A stretch of DNA of 58,558 bases from contig CALVAW010000006.1 in NCBI GenBank assembly GCA_944325655.1, positions 1 to 58,558 of the forward strand, given 5' to 3'. Shown here piece by piece: positions 38,065-43,954 of this stretch (positions are counted from its first letter, which is position 1; each line of letters begins with the position of its first letter). A program made the translations under genes and the position numbers. The notes under the pieces are model-generated. The model saw nothing but the letters and a program-made list of their open reading frames with translations. It had not been told where the DNA came from and made no database searches. The DNA comes from Candidatus Gastranaerophilales bacterium. Its GTDB lineage: Bacteria > Cyanobacteriota > Vampirovibrionia > Gastranaerophilales > Gastranaerophilaceae.

Positions 38065-38601
38065 ATGGCAAAATTAATCGGAAGCAGCCTTTTTACAGGT
38101 GCTATTTCAAATTTAAATGCAAATTATCTTTTGATGTTAAACGGAAATAAAGGTTTAACGCTTGATAATATTTTAAATCCATCTTCTGACAATGTTAAAT
38201 ATACAGTAAACCAGAATTTTAGAAGTTATATGATGACTAATTTTAATCAAATTGATGTGGATGGTGACGGTACGATTTCTGAGGATGATTTAAGTAATTA
38301 TGCGACAAAATTACAAACCCAAGGAATGACTTATAATGAATTATCGCAACTTTGCGCAAATGGGGGGTCTTCAATGTCCAGTTTATTGGATACTGTTTTA
38401 TCAAACTTTAATGAAATCGATACAAACCATGATGGCAGAGTTACTCAAAATGAAATTAATGCATATCGTATTAATGAGGAAATTAAGGATGTCAAAGAAA
38501 AATATCCGAGAATAGATCCTACAAAAATGTCTATGTTTTATGAGACTGATACGTCAAATGATACTTCAAATAAAGATGACGATGACAAAGTTTTTAATTA
38601 A
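38065..38601 (+). CDS. EF-hand calcium-binding-domain protein
   Basis: A 178-residue protein with two canonical EF-hand loops: DVDGDGTISEDD (ligand positions 1, 3, 5, 7, 9, 12 all suitable) and DTNHDGRVTQNE (position 7 Arg uses the backbone; 12 is Glu). They are separated by about 40 residues, a paired-EF-hand layout. The N-terminal 45 residues include SLFTGAISNLNANYLLMLNGNKGLT, which is not a clear signal peptide. A C-terminal acidic tail ends in DDDDKVFN. GAGGTAATAATT precedes the ATG. Calcium binding is predicted; role and localisation unknown. Confidence 0.82.
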   Translation: MAKLIGSSLFTGAISNLNANYLLMLNGNKGLTLDNILNPSSDNVKYTVNQNFRSYMMTNFNQIDVDGDGTISEDDLSNYATKLQTQGMTYNELSQLCANGGSSMSSLLDTVLSNFNEIDTNHDGRVTQNEINAYRINEEIKDVKEKYPRIDPTKMSMFYETDTSNDTSNKDDDDKVFN

Positions 38602-38660: not shown

Positions 38661-39527
38661 TTAAGCTAATTTAATTGTTGAGTTTTGTATTTCAGAGCTT
38701 ACCGCTTCGCTTACTGCTTGCATTTCTTGGCTTACCGCTTCCATTTGTGATTCAACATCGGTTTTTTCAAGTTCAAGCATTGTTTCTTGGTCGTTTACTT
38801 CTTCTTCAAGCATTGCAAGCTCATCTTCGTAATATGTTTTTTCATAATTTAAATCTTCTGTATAATTTGTTTGTGCGTCTTGTCTTTCTATTTGAATATT
38901 TGAAAGCTCGCTGTTAATTGTTGTTTCTAAAGTTCCTATATTGTTTTCATCAATATTATCTAAACTTGGCAGACTTAATTCATCGATTATGCTGCTAAAA
39001 TCATACACATCAAATCTTGTAATAGTATCAATCGGTATGCCGGTATTTGTTCCCCATGATGATGTACCGGGATAATAGACTTGCATTCCGTCAGCTGTTG
39101 TTTTTAAGTCTTTGTATTCTACAAATTGAATATTTCCGTTTGCGTCTTGTGTGCTGCAAATTGGACTACCGGTTGCATTAGAGGAAGTTTTTACGTATTT
39201 TCCATTAGTTGTATCAACGAGTACTTCTTTTGGGTTGCTTGGATTAACCGTAATATCGTTTGATTGGTTATCGGCAATTTCTCTTGCTATTCTTAAATAT
39301 TTGTTTAAAGTATTTCTTTTTTCATCCAGTTTTTCTACAGCTTCATTATAGCTTGTTTTCAAAGGCTGAAGTGCTTTTTGTTGATCATTTTGAATAACAG
39401 ATGTTTCATGCTGTTTTCTTCTTGCAAGTTGCCTTTCTTCTCTGGATATTTGCAGGTCACGAATTTGATAATAAGCATGCGACTGCTTCAATTCTCTCTT
39501 TCTTAATGTAAGTGTTACCCACCCCAT
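38661..39527 (-). CDS. WVTLTLRK-type coiled-coil protein 1 (long form, 288 residues)
   Basis: No recognised domain. The N terminus MGWVTLTLRKRELKQSHAYY and the following 40 residues are nearly identical to protein 2 (188 residues), then comes a charged coil. Residues about 90-190 form a non-coiled insert absent from the paralogs, Asn/Ser/Thr-rich with strand-like stretches (VVYYPGTSSWGTNTGIP). The C-terminal 50 residues (LEEEVNDQETMLELEKT and MEAVSQEMQAVSEAVSSEI) are conserved again. There is no signal peptide. It is monocistronic with AAAGAGGTATTACT before the ATG. Its upstream region carries the shared box at 39568. Possible surface, filament or scaffold protein; function unknown. Confidence 0.7.
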   Translation of the reverse strand: MGWVTLTLRKRELKQSHAYYQIRDLQISREERQLARRKQHETSVIQNDQQKALQPLKTSYNEAVEKLDEKRNTLNKYLRIAREIADNQSNDITVNPSNPKEVLVDTTNGKYVKTSSNATGSPICSTQDANGNIQFVEYKDLKTTADGMQVYYPGTSSWGTNTGIPIDTITRFDVYDFSSIIDELSLPSLDNIDENNIGTLETTINSELSNIQIERQDAQTNYTEDLNYEKTYYEDELAMLEEEVNDQETMLELEKTDVESQMEAVSQEMQAVSEAVSSEIQNSTIKLA

Positions 39528-39567
39528 AGTAATACCTCTTTCTCTTTTAAAACGTGTTTAATATAAT

Positions 39568-39578
39568 ATCCCTACATT
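39568..39578 (-). promoter_or_regulatory. Shared upstream box, copy 1
   Basis: Minus strand AATGTAGGGAT followed by ATTATAT, 41 bases before the ATG of coiled-coil protein 1. Exact 11-mer found again upstream of coiled-coil proteins 2 and 4. The TATTAT inside the flank could be a -10. Promoter or operator is inferred. Confidence 0.5.
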
Positions 39579-39624
39579 AAGATAAAGTTTTTTTGTGATA
39601 GAAAATTGTCTTTTTTAGTAATGT

Positions 39625-40161
39625 TTAGTTTACAAAAGTTAACATTTCAAGTCTAACTCTGCCGTATTTCTTTATTTTAAATGTTTTTAGCATTAAATTA
39701 TTTCGAGCAATTATCTTGTATGTATCAATTTGATTTGATACATCATATTCCATTATAATTATTCCTTTTGTATTAAGAAGTTTAGCGGCTTTGCATAAAA
39801 TAGGCTCATAATCGCTGTTCCATGGCGGATCTATATATATTACATCAAACTTTTCATTTGTTTTATAGAATAGCGCATTTGTAATAATTAAATCCGGTTT
39901 TTGTTTGATTTTTGCATAGTTTTTTTTAATTAATTCAGCGCTTTTGGGATTTATTTCAATTTCTTTGACCTTATATCCCCTCGAAAGAGCTTCTAATCCC
40001 ATTATTGCGCTTCCTGCAAACATATCAAGAAATTTAGAGTCTATTTTATAAAATGGCATTAAAATATTAAATACGCTTTCCCTGACTTTTGATAAAGTAG
40101 GTTTTGCGCTTTTAGGTACTTCTATTTTATTCCCTTTGTATTGCCCGCCTGTCAGATACAT
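39625..40161 (-). CDS. rsmD: 16S rRNA (guanine(966)-N2)-methyltransferase
   Basis: RsmD methylates G966 of 16S rRNA on 30S subunits with SAM. The 178-residue protein has the family start MYLTGGQYKGNKIEVPK, RPTxxKVRESVFNIL variant (KPTLSKVRESVFNIL), the SAM motif FLDMFAGSAIMGLEALSRG, and catalytic IYIDPPWNSD (the DPPW/Y motif). The C terminus after KKYGRVRLEMLTFVN is standard. It is divergent from the NADH oxidase-like gene. Its final codons (antisense of ACAAAAGTTAACATT) have an echo in the 42.3 kb intergenic region. Confidence 0.93.
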   Translation of the reverse strand: MYLTGGQYKGNKIEVPKSAKPTLSKVRESVFNILMPFYKIDSKFLDMFAGSAIMGLEALSRGYKVKEIEINPKSAELIKKNYAKIKQKPDLIITNALFYKTNEKFDVIYIDPPWNSDYEPILCKAAKLLNTKGIIIMEYDVSNQIDTYKIIARNNLMLKTFKIKKYGRVRLEMLTFVN

Positions 40162-40193
40162 TTATTTATATCCTTATTTATCATAAATTTATC

Positions 40194-41558
40194 ATGAAAA
40201 AAATTGTTATAATAGGCGGTGGTGCTGCGGGAGCAAAAGCTGCTTCAAAAGCCAAGAGATTAAATCCTGACAATCATGTTGAACTTTATACGGAAGAAGA
40301 ACATATTGCTGTATCATTATGCGGTTTGCCATATTATATTGAAGGTTCAGTGGATGATATAAATAAATTAATAATAAGAACTCCGGATGATTTTTTAAAT
40401 ATGGGTATTCCGGTCTTTTTAAAGCATAACTTAGAAGAAATTTATCCGGAGCAAAATTGTGTATTAATCAACGGTAATCATATTTTTTACGATGAGCTAA
40501 TACTTGCACTTGGGGCTAAAGTTAATATTCCAAATATTGATAACATTAATGCGAATAATATTTTTACTTTGCGCAGTATTGAGTCCGGAATTAAAATAAG
40601 AGAAAAAATGCTTTCATCGAAATCTGTTATTTTGCTTGGAGCAGGATATATTGCAATCGAGCTAAGCGAAGCTTTTATCAAAAACGGACTTAATGTAATA
40701 TTAATAGAAGCAAAGGATAGAATAGCTTCGGATTTTGATGAGGATTTTTCGAAATTAATTCAAGATATAATTGCGTCAAAGTGCGACAATAAAATCAGCA
40801 CTTTTTACAACAAAAAAGTAGTTAAAGTAACCGTTGACGAAAATAATAATTTTAGAAGCATTATAACTGAAACAGGAGAAGAATATTTTGCAGATTTTTG
40901 TGTTTTATGCACAGGAGCTTCACCTAATGTTAATATTGCTAAAAGCGCAGGTATAAAGCTCGGCATTACAGGAGCTATACAAGTTGACAACAGAATGCGA
41001 ACCAATATTGCAAATATTTTTGCCTGCGGCGATTGTACGCAAAAGTTTGATATTGTCACAAGAGAGCCTATTTATTTAGGTCTCGGTACAATTGCAAATA
41101 AAGAGGGCAGAGTTGCTGCAATTAATGCAACTTGCAGAAAAGATTATGAAATTTTTGACGGTGTGTTAGGTTCATTAATTACAAGATTTTTTGATTACAC
41201 AATTTCAAAAACCGGTTTAAGCTTAAATAAAGCGCTTGAATATTCAAGAAAAGTTAACCTTGAGCCCATAAGCGCAACTATTACAAAAAAAGATAAAGCA
41301 AGCTATATGCCTTTTGCAAATGAAATGACACTAAAATTAGTTGCCGATAAAAGAAGCGGAGAGATTTTGGGTGCGCAGGGAGTCGGGTGTGTAGGAAATG
41401 TAGCACAGAGAATTAATACAATTACTTCTGCACTGAAAGCAAGATTGACTGTAGATGATTTACTTCATTTGGATTTACCTTACGCACCACCTTATTCCAG
41501 TTCTGTTGACCCCATTTTAACTGCAGCTTATAAATTAAAAGAGCAAATAAAAAAATAA
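40194..41558 (+). CDS. NADH oxidase/CoA-disulfide reductase-family flavoprotein
   Basis: A 454-residue single-cysteine flavoprotein of the Nox/Cdr group: KKIVIIGGGAAGAKAASKAK (FAD), SLCGLPYYIEG with the active Cys at residue 43, SVILLGAGYIAIELSEAF (NADH), NIFACGDCTQKFD (second FAD) and the C-terminal DLPYAPPYSSSVDPI of this family. Members reduce O2 to water or H2O2, or CoA disulfide, or polysulfide; the sequence does not decide which. It contributes to oxygen defence. The gene is monocistronic, ending in a strong terminator; the start has no obvious ribosome-binding site. Confidence 0.87.
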   Translation: MKKIVIIGGGAAGAKAASKAKRLNPDNHVELYTEEEHIAVSLCGLPYYIEGSVDDINKLIIRTPDDFLNMGIPVFLKHNLEEIYPEQNCVLINGNHIFYDELILALGAKVNIPNIDNINANNIFTLRSIESGIKIREKMLSSKSVILLGAGYIAIELSEAFIKNGLNVILIEAKDRIASDFDEDFSKLIQDIIASKCDNKISTFYNKKVVKVTVDENNNFRSIITETGEEYFADFCVLCTGASPNVNIAKSAGIKLGITGAIQVDNRMRTNIANIFACGDCTQKFDIVTREPIYLGLGTIANKEGRVAAINATCRKDYEIFDGVLGSLITRFFDYTISKTGLSLNKALEYSRKVNLEPISATITKKDKASYMPFANEMTLKLVADKRSGEILGAQGVGCVGNVAQRINTITSALKARLTVDDLLHLDLPYAPPYSSSVDPILTAAYKLKEQIKK

Positions 41559-41582
41559 AATGCCGATTTTTCGGCATTTTTA
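41557..41582. terminator. Intrinsic terminator
   Basis: AAAATGCCGA/TCGGCATTTT with a TTTT loop, 10-bp perfect stem. It overlaps the stop of the NADH oxidase-like gene and serves the convergent coiled-coil gene 2 too. Confidence 0.88.
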
Positions 41583-41618
41583 ATTACACTATTTTGGTTT
41601 TACTATTTCTTACTTATA

Positions 41619-42185
41619 TTAAGCTAATTTTATTGTTGAATTTTGTATTTCTGTGCTTACTGCTTCGCTTACTGCTTGCATTTCTTGGCTAATTGCTTCC
41701 ATTTGAGCTTCTACTTCAGTTTGTTCCATATCAAGTTGTGTTTCTTTATCGGAAGCTTCTTCTTCAAGCATCGCAAGTTCACTTTCATAAATCGTTTTTT
41801 CAAAATTATTTTGATCGCTGTAATCTACCTGTGCGTCTGATAAAAGTGCATTTAAATCAGATATTGTCATTTCTTGACCGTCATAGTTAATAGTTTCAGT
41901 ATTGACATCAAGTTTATCTTCTCCATCAGATAAATTTGCGTTCTTTTCTTTTGTATTTGTTCTTATTTCGCTTATAGCGTCTCTGATTCCATCTTTTTTT
42001 GTATTGTATTCTTCTTTTAGTCCGGCAATTGCTTCTTGCTGCTCGTTTTGAATAACTGCAGTTTCATATTGTTTGCTTCTTGCCAGTTGTCTTTTTTCAC
42101 GCGAAATCTGTAAATCTCGTAATTGATAATAAGCGTGCTCTTGTTTTAATTCTCTCTTCCTTAGTGTAAGCGTGACCCATCCCAT
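41619..42185 (-). CDS. WVTLTLRK-type coiled-coil protein 2 (188 residues)
   Basis: Closest relative of protein 1. Identity over the first about 54 residues is very high (only a few changes: SH to EH, RRKQH to RSKQY, and so on), and the C-terminal stretch from AMLEEE to the end is nearly the same, ending in QNSTIKLA. The middle differs and lacks the long insert of protein 1. Most of the chain is predicted coiled coil with few Pro and no Cys. There is no signal peptide or membrane helix. AAAAGAGGTTTTACT precedes the ATG, as in protein 1. The box lies 73 bases upstream. Function unknown. Confidence 0.75.
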   Translation of the reverse strand: MGWVTLTLRKRELKQEHAYYQLRDLQISREKRQLARSKQYETAVIQNEQQEAIAGLKEEYNTKKDGIRDAISEIRTNTKEKNANLSDGEDKLDVNTETINYDGQEMTISDLNALLSDAQVDYSDQNNFEKTIYESELAMLEEEASDKETQLDMEQTEVEAQMEAISQEMQAVSEAVSTEIQNSTIKLA

Positions 42186-42257
42186 AGTAAAACCTCTTTT
42201 CTCTCGTGTCCCCTAGTGTAAATAATGTAACGTGTCTATAATTTATTGTGTGTAAAA

Positions 42258-42268
42258 ATCCCTACATT
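42258..42268 (-). promoter_or_regulatory. Shared upstream box, copy 2
   Basis: Minus strand AATGTAGGGAT 73 bases before coiled-coil gene 2. The surrounding sequence also aligns with copy 1 (AAAATTG-CTTTTTAG and TTACAAAA-TTAACATT stretches upstream), so the two upstream regions look like a duplication. Confidence 0.5.
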
Positions 42269-42407
42269 CTAATAAACAATTTTTGGTTACAAAAATTGCT
42301 TTTTAGAATTATTACAGTGTTACAAAACTTAACATTATCGTCTGAAATGCAATAGACACGACAATTTAAGTTTTACTATTTATATAGTAAATATTTATTT
42401 TAAGAAT

Positions 42408-42659
42408 TTAGCATAACTGAATTTTTAGATTTTTATTTTCGGACAAAATTCTAAAATCGAAAAGCACTTCTTCTTTATACAGGCTCATTTCATTTTCAAA
42501 ATAAGCTGTATTGTCGGAATTATCAGAATTTTTTTCCAATAATTCATTTAAAAGTAAAAATTTTCTAAATTCTCTTGACGATGCAAATTCAAATAGCTTT
42601 GCACCAAGCCTTTTTTCGCAGAGCTTACGCTTGCGCAGCTCATTTTTTTGCATTCCCAT
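42408..42659 (-). CDS. Short WVTLTLRK-type paralog (degenerate, 83 residues)
   Basis: The longest frame starts at 42677, but the second in-frame ATG (42659) yields MGMQKNELRKRKLCE, which aligns to MGWVTLTLRKRELKQ at M, G, L, R, K, R and L. The upstream leader GGAGAATGGTATTCT also aligns with the GAGGTATTACT leaders of paralogs 1 and 2. The rest (LLLNELLEKNSDNSD...EVLFDFRILSENKNLK) is short and lacks the conserved C-terminal coil, so it is a shortened or decaying member. It carries copy 3 of the box upstream. The remaining function is unclear. Confidence 0.5.
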   Translation of the reverse strand: MGMQKNELRKRKLCEKRLGAKLFEFASSREFRKFLLLNELLEKNSDNSDNTAYFENEMSLYKEEVLFDFRILSENKNLKIQLC

Positions 42660-42694
42660 AGAATACCATTCTCCCATAAATTGTGTGTGACATA

Positions 42695-42705
42695 ATCCCT
42701 ACATT
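42695..42705 (-). promoter_or_regulatory. Shared upstream box, copy 3
   Basis: Minus strand AATGTAGGGAT 35 bases before the chosen start of the short paralog. The upstream flank again has AACTTTATTG and AAGCAATTTT stretches as in the other copies. Confidence 0.45.
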
Positions 42706-42770
42706 TCAATAAAGTTTTTTTAATTAATAAAATTGCTTCGATATTTAATTAATCGTTAATATTTCTTCAC

Positions 42771-42798
42771 AAAAAATATGTTATATAACATATTTTTT
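42771..42798. repeat. Perfect 28-bp palindrome
   Basis: AAAAAATATGTTAT joined to ATAACATATTTTTT reads the same on both strands over 28 bases. It lies between the divergent short paralog and the kinase gene, 17 bases before the kinase ATG. Could be an operator or a hairpin with T-tail; AT-richness makes a chance origin possible. Confidence 0.85.
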
Positions 42799-42814
42799 GT
42801 TTTATAATACGTTT

Positions 42815-43339
42815 ATGAAGCATATTATAGTTATTTCGGGAAAACAATATAGCGGCAAAGATACCCTTGCCGGAATTTTAATCAATAAATTGCCCGATTA
42901 TAAAAGAATTGGGTTAGGTGATGCAATAAAGATAGAATTTGCTAAAAAAAACAATATTACAATTGATGAAATTTTAAAAAACAAACATTTGTACAGAAAC
43001 GGTTTAATTGAACTCGGCAATTGGGGTAGAGACCAAGATGAAGATTATTGGATTAAAAACCTTGTTGCTTATGATAAAATCATTGTGCCTGATGTCAGAG
43101 TGCAACATGAAGCTGATTTTTTTAAGAATGTCGGAGCTTTCTTAGTCAGGGTCGAATCTGATTACGAAAATCGCTCCAAGCGTGGTGTTATTGTTAATAA
43201 TGATGATGCTACCGAAATTGCTCTTGATAATTATTCGGGCTTTGATTTAGTTGTCTATAATAACTCTTCTTATGAAGATCTTGTTTTATCTGCAGATAAA
43301 GTTATAAGTGCTTATAATAATTTTTTATCGGTACACTAA
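42815..43339 (+). CDS. P-loop nucleotide/phosphate kinase-like protein
   Basis: A 174-residue P-loop protein with the Walker A motif ISGKQYSGKDTLAGIL near the start, followed by LGNWGRDQDEDYWIKNL and IIVPDVRVQHEADFFKN, the second a typical lid/nucleotide contact pattern of deoxynucleoside monophosphate kinase and phosphomevalonate-kinase-like proteins. The substrate is unknown; the sequence resembles phage T4 gp1-type dNMP kinases in the DxR-x(4)-E arrangement. The ATG at 42815 is preferred over the upstream TTG; no clear ribosome-binding site is seen since the palindrome lies just upstream. It is convergent with coiled-coil protein 3. Confidence 0.68.
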   Translation: MKHIIVISGKQYSGKDTLAGILINKLPDYKRIGLGDAIKIEFAKKNNITIDEILKNKHLYRNGLIELGNWGRDQDEDYWIKNLVAYDKIIVPDVRVQHEADFFKNVGAFLVRVESDYENRSKRGVIVNNDDATEIALDNYSGFDLVVYNNSSYEDLVLSADKVISAYNNFLSVH

Positions 43340-43340
43340 A

Positions 43341-43808
43341 TTATTTCAGATTTAGTTTCGAACTTTCGATATCTGAGCTTATTTGTTCGTTAACTGTTTC
43401 AAGTTCGCCTCTCATTGCTTCTAATTGAGCTTCAACAGTTGTTTGCTCTTCTTGCATTCTTGTTTCTTCATCTGTTGCCGCTTCTTCAAGCTCGCTCAAT
43501 ATGTCGTCATAATAATCATTTATGTCTTGTTTCTGCGCTTCATAATCTTCTCTTGCCGCAGAATAATCAAGTTGCCAATCTGCATATTCTTCTGAATCTG
43601 TTTCCGGTCTGTTATCACGTATTTCAAGGTAACTTGATTTAGCATCGGCTAATTCGTGTTTTTTGCTATTATTGAATACGGATTGTTCATAAGACAAATT
43701 ACGCTGAATGCTGCGAATTTGACGTGACATTTGAATATCACGCAATTCCAAGCTGTTGATTTCAGCTCGCAAGGTTAATTTTCTTAAAGTTAGCGTTACC
43801 CAGCTCAT
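43341..43808 (-). CDS. WVTLTLRK-type coiled-coil protein 3 (155 residues)
   Basis: A more divergent paralog: MSWVTLTLRKLTLRAEINSL at the N terminus, LRDIQMSRQIRSIQR in place of LRDLQISREERQLAR, and a conserved C-terminal coil with AATDEETRMQEEQTTVEAQL through to SSDIESSKLNLK. The middle is acidic and tyrosine-rich (DYSAAREDYEAQKQDINDYYDD). No Cys, signal peptide or membrane helix. AAGGTAG before the ATG is the ribosome-binding site. The upstream region lacks the AATGTAGGGAT box, so its regulation seems different from that of paralogs 1, 2 and 4. Confidence 0.72.
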   Translation of the reverse strand: MSWVTLTLRKLTLRAEINSLELRDIQMSRQIRSIQRNLSYEQSVFNNSKKHELADAKSSYLEIRDNRPETDSEEYADWQLDYSAAREDYEAQKQDINDYYDDILSELEEAATDEETRMQEEQTTVEAQLEAMRGELETVNEQISSDIESSKLNLK

Positions 43809-43954
43809 AATTTCTACCTTGTTTTGTAATTAACTCATGAACATTCGACCTTTTTTTGTTCACATATATATAAAGTATATATTTTGTTAATAATTTCAAT
43901 ATATACAAAAAAATTTACAAAACTTTACAAAATTTTTTTTAAAAAAATTAAGAT

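Follow-up and report, generated by a model that had tools for sequence, protein, structure and literature searches.

What are the related helical proteins that recur within a few kilobases of the genome of a Candidatus Gastranaerophilales bacterium, a member of a group that is common in the gut and sister to the photosynthetic cyanobacteria? The stretch of DNA analysed here (hereafter the window; 58,558 nucleotides of contig CALVAW010000006.1, assembly GCA_944325655.1, from a genome of 1.69 Mb in 58 contigs) encodes three such proteins on the minus strand, all in open reading frames: member 1 (38661..39527, 288 amino acids (aa), running from MGWVTLTLRK to QNSTIKLA around a long variable middle), member 2 (41619..42185, 188 aa) and member 3 (43341..43808, 155 aa). 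A first-pass annotation had singled them out for their shared N and C termini, and had proposed either a self-assembling or secreted polymer or a cytoskeletal scaffold; its guess of Vampirovibrionia as the host group was correct. We arrive at a more specific and still tentative proposal, to which we give slightly less than an even chance: together with a class-wide sister family, LTARK, the window family would provide a second type III secretion system of flagellar type (T3SS2) with subunits that are exported late.

The shared termini were borne out by an alignment that spans both ends of the three proteins, identifying them as paralogues; 49 columns are invariant across all three, and members 1 and 2 are 63% identical. 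The ends of member 1 matched member 2 in tblastn with E values of 4e-26 and 4e-25, and those of member 3 did so with 2e-9 and 3e-8. The conserved ends and variable middle are also measurable between orthologues, with identities over the first 45 residues (N45), the middle and the last 80 residues (C80) of 91/39/78% for member 1, 93/40/80% for member 2 and 83/70/86% for member 3. A profile built from the three proteins gave 2–7 matches per genome in all 28 genomes of one Gastranaerophilales genus and, outside it, matched one genome of another genus in the same family; a distant paralogue (189 aa) is found elsewhere in the window's own genome, on contig C32. Within the loci examined, L045 (1282-1782 and 3951-4451) and L048 (1689-2243 and 4318-4872) each carry two family copies of equal length and identical start, in tandem in one contig, which represent either recent duplication or an assembly artefact.

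Profile matches in the remaining genera fell on a coil of about 60–75 residues at the C terminus of another family, LTARK, whose members start with MGxAASQARxLxLTARK and end in a coil of the form TEMESVxKVIxxNIExTFKxF (alignments A2 and A5), and which is present in all 57 Gastranaerophilales genomes with 3–19 matches each. When the C-terminal 75 residues of the two families were compared, hhalign returned a probability of 93.6% (P = 2e-7), with both families in the same register up to the C terminus, against no more than 3.4% for 60 heptad-preserving column shuffles and 8–11% for reversed profiles. The N termini gave 32.5%, likewise in register, against 1.5% when reversed. At the level of sequence profiles, homology is thus shown for the C-terminal coil and likely for the N terminus, and we regard the three window proteins as one co-regulated branch, specific to a genus, of a family that spans the class and comprises LTARK and WVTLTLRK proteins. 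The termini are accordingly a genus-wide character with a class-level sister family rather than a peculiarity of one locus. Neither family could be related to a known one, searches against Pfam, NCBIfam, PHROGs and PDB sequences yielding nothing above chance, and the WVTLTLRK sequence was nowhere mentioned in the literature searched.

FlhA and FlhB were detected in 57 of 57 Gastranaerophilales genomes, most of which carry two sets. Eight genomes (G010, G027–G030, G033, G034 and G047) have the second set alone; a search for flagellin found no match in seven of them (G010, G028–G030, G033, G034 and G047) and a single match in G027. Across the 15 genomes in which FliP was counted, these eight had one copy, and six of the seven others had two. 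Because the two sets coexist, we treat the second as a separate machine, T3SS2. Its parts include FliE, FliF, FliH, FlhA2, FlhB2, FliP2, a FliM/N-type protein, FliO, FliQ, FliR, FliN, FliL, a T3SS-type ATPase and rod proteins. It therefore has the components that define a flagellar-type T3SS (FlhA, FlhB, FliP, FliQ, FliR, FliF, FliH and the ATPase), along with flagellar-type rod genes, where an injectisome would be marked by the secretin SctC and a needle instead of the flagellar rod. T3SS2 forms mainly one operon in several families, most of it lying in one operon with the T3SS-type ATPase in G035, G037 and G040. In the window's genome it is spread over contigs C7 (SLT-FliE-FliF-X-FliH-FlhA2), C4 (FlhB2), C29 (rod genes), C16 (FliN, FliL, FliJ-like and rod-like) and C26 (FliM/N-type, FliO, FliP, FliQ and FliR). 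Protein X, about 317 aa long and encoded at the FliG position of the operon, had no convincing Pfam match in the two copies tested (L061:13630-14583, on C7 of the window's own genome, and L300:9147-10103).

A class-wide survey of 194 genomes linked LTARK to this machine. FHIPEP, the FlhA match, was found in 140 genomes and LTARK in 116; all 116 LTARK-positive genomes were FHIPEP-positive, and LTARK occurred in none without FHIPEP. The 24 genomes with FHIPEP and no LTARK all belong to families f10, f11 and f12. Phylogenetic analysis of FlhA placed the second copy from families f1, f6, f7, f9 and f15 in one clade (support 100/100) distinct from f10–f12, in a tree where f14 is represented only through its flagellar copy and where the tool warned of long branches meeting elsewhere. 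In several relatives, as in the window's own genome, flhB2 has an LTARK gene one gene away.

Promoters provide a further connection. The best upstream site of each gene was scored against the sigma-28 consensus TAAAGTTT/GCCGATAA, with a cut-off of at least 13 of 16. Sites of this type preceded 26 of 73 LTARK genes, as against 25 of 1689 other genes (p = 1e-24) and 1 of 146 shuffled upstream sequences, in counts that include orthologues, are not independent and are uncorrected for shared ancestry. A sigma-28-type site is also present 5' of the rod gene that comes first in the T3SS2 operon (three genomes) and of one flagellin gene. LTARK genes with 15- and 16-of-16 sites occur in the flagella-less genomes G033 and G047, where there is no flagellum for this promoter class to serve. 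A divergent FliA/WhiG-like sigma gene, scoring below the model cut-off, lies beside flhB2 in several genera, and does so in the genomes G033 and G047 (L191:7021-7683, L199:6764-7429, L320:8750-9430 and L322:5971-6627).

Would such proteins leave the cell at all? Modelled by AlphaFold2 from 28 sequences, member 3 is predicted to be a hairpin of two helices (residues 3-65 and 74-154; mean predicted local distance difference test (pLDDT) 90). Foldseek searches with this hairpin returned generic coiled coils, with YscO (template modelling score 0.62, E = 0.57), IpaB and CT398 among non-significant matches from which we draw no inference. As the first-pass annotation had stated, no signal peptide or membrane helix was apparent, judged by eye and from the all-helical model of this one member. 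A helical hairpin, a weak match to YscO and the lack of a visible Sec signal would all suit cytoplasmic coiled-coil proteins that are not exported and act as a scaffold (a cytoskeletal one is possible for the window family), as a chaperone or as an export-apparatus accessory like FliJ/SctO. We nevertheless consider this unlikely, given that T3SS2 operons hold a separate FliJ-like gene (recognised by position and a look at the sequence, with no Pfam match), that the LTARK middle of 200–300 residues is unsuited to a stalk, and that paralogues are multiple.

The same middles, which are very variable, and the many copies of LTARK (one genome has as many as 19 matches) could also indicate separate effectors or adhesins secreted through T3SS2, in which the middle is the active part, the ends are export and chaperone signals and no polymer is formed. 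This too we hold to be improbable: a long conserved C-terminal coil is uncommon among effectors, and 30 LTARK proteins contained no convincing enzymatic or binding domain. Assembly is preferred to individual action because strongly conserved terminal coils flank a variable middle.

The window family has its own regulation. Members 1 and 2 and a short gene are preceded by CTTTAT-N5-TGTAGGG, whose first half may also read GTTTAT; 16 bases farther upstream is a CAATT box. Three such sites lie within the window, against 0 to 0.01 expected. These sites, all on the minus strand, are at 39570..39610 for member 1 (GACAATT-N16-CTTTAT-N5-TGTAGGG), 42260..42300 for member 2 (one mismatch) and 42697..42737 for the short gene; a variant, CTTTAT-N5-TGTGAAC, lies upstream of member 3 (43858..43875, minus strand). 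A looser form of the motif (N3-8) had 20 sites in 2.84 Mb of loci, 15 at family genes, five at the short gene and none elsewhere, compared with about 0.7 expected in base-shuffled sequence; as the loci were centred on window-family and T3SS2 genes, this measures enrichment within that set and is not a whole-genome scan. The short gene (42408..42659, minus strand; 83 aa from the ATG at 42659, in a reading frame open from 42677 upstream) is conserved among related genomes. Described initially as a shortened fourth copy, it belongs with the family by regulation, since it carries the common private promoter, while by descent it is at most a candidate member, the protein similarity being in register and not significant (hhalign 5.6%). 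No sigma-28-type promoter scoring at least 13 was found upstream of any of 73 window-family genes. It is very improbable that the window family is unrelated to T3SS2, its LTARK-like C terminus reflecting coiled-coil convergence and the co-occurrence mere phylogeny: the differing promoter class, the housekeeping genes as neighbours and the narrow distribution (one genus and a single further genome) favour this, whereas the shuffled and reversed profile controls and the register shared up to the C terminus speak against convergence.

We therefore return to late T3SS2 cargo as the favoured reading. LTARK proteins would be to T3SS2 what flagellin is to the flagellum, and the window family would be a derived branch under a promoter of its own, using the same machine. 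We infer that both would be exported without a Sec signal, their N- and C-terminal helices packing together as a filament or coat that leaves the variable middle exposed, in a flagellin-like logic. The weakest link in this chain leads from LTARK to the window family and draws on the C-terminal homology. Several observations weigh against the proposal. The N-terminal similarity of the two families is weak; G141 has ten LTARK matches and no full-length FHIPEP; class-level co-occurrence may reflect one ancestral gain, and phylogeny could explain it; adjacency of LTARK to flhB2 is confined to one genus and absent in the other genera examined; the sigma-28 counts are subject to the shared ancestry noted above; the window family uses its own promoter, not one of sigma-28 type, and its genes sit among housekeeping genes; and the AlphaFold2 model is a generic coiled-coil hairpin. 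The self-assembling or secreted polymer originally suggested is a possible reading that fits the evidence. To that suggestion the present analysis adds a connection with a second export system of flagellar type, and the common private promoter. A broader version appears doubtful to us: an ancient second flagellum-derived organelle of Gastranaerophilales and sister lineages, complete to the rod and without flagellin, whose outer part LTARK/WVTLTLRK proteins would form. These would be filament or coat subunits with no relation to flagellin that have diversified genome by genome and, in the genus of the window, include an additional branch under separate control.

A gene for an EF-hand protein (38065..38601, plus strand) is divergently transcribed from member 1 and adjoins the window family in many related genomes as well. 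Its similarity to XopAW, a type III effector that binds calcium, is weak and falls below threshold, and its structure model made without an alignment had a pLDDT of 41, too low to be of use; it is at most a candidate member of the system to which the window family belongs. Among genes related to the export apparatus, a 483-aa soluble protein (G000:C58:171-1622, L063) combines a new N-terminal part with the FlhA cytoplasmic domain and has no membrane part. It recurs in most Gastranaerophilales genomes, where it gives a third match to FHIPEP (at about positions 321-656), and is possibly a decoy or adaptor for export cargo. In the window's genus, flhB2 is immediately preceded by a large gene (L195:8965-11394 and relatives), and one relative matches the PcrA/UvrD tudor domain.

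If Gastranaerophilales do have a second export machine that is conserved and serves cargo of its own, non-motile members in the gut may secrete or display proteins toward the host or neighbouring bacteria. It would also be a further case of a flagellum converted to another organelle, here with named and testable candidate subunits, in a group whose partial flagella have so far been interpreted as motility loss.

Incomplete flagellar gene sets in some Gastranaerophilales have been read as loss of the flagellum (PMC3787301, PMC4040986). The same kinds of genes are listed there (flgC, flgG, fliF, fliH, flhA, fliI, fliPQR and flhB), and these studies appear to have taken T3SS2 for a partly lost flagellum, whereas what we describe is a second, paralogous set that also coexists with flagellar genes. 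Literature searches did not relevantly join Gastranaerophilales with type III secretion, or Melainabacteria with non-flagellar type III secretion. Among known components, the FliJ/SctO (YscO) stalk may resemble member 3, for which a hairpin of two helices and some 150 residues is predicted, but the window genes are not at the fliI-fliJ position, have many paralogues and mostly encode a long variable middle, and another FliJ-like gene is already present in T3SS2 operons. Rod or hook homology was rejected, hhalign giving less than 1% for both ends against 97% for the positive control; in Pfam, the window family had no flagellin or rod domain match (Flg_bb_rod, Flg_bbr_C), nor, with E up to 1, was there a match to needle or basal-body rod families when T3SS needle and inner-rod proteins (SctF, SctI) were considered. 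The window proteins are thus not detectably rod or hook proteins, and in this they differ from flagellin and the other axial proteins. They resemble them in having conserved terminal helices around a variable middle, in the sigma-28 promoters on part of LTARK and, as a proposal, in export by a flagellar-type T3SS that would need no Sec signal.
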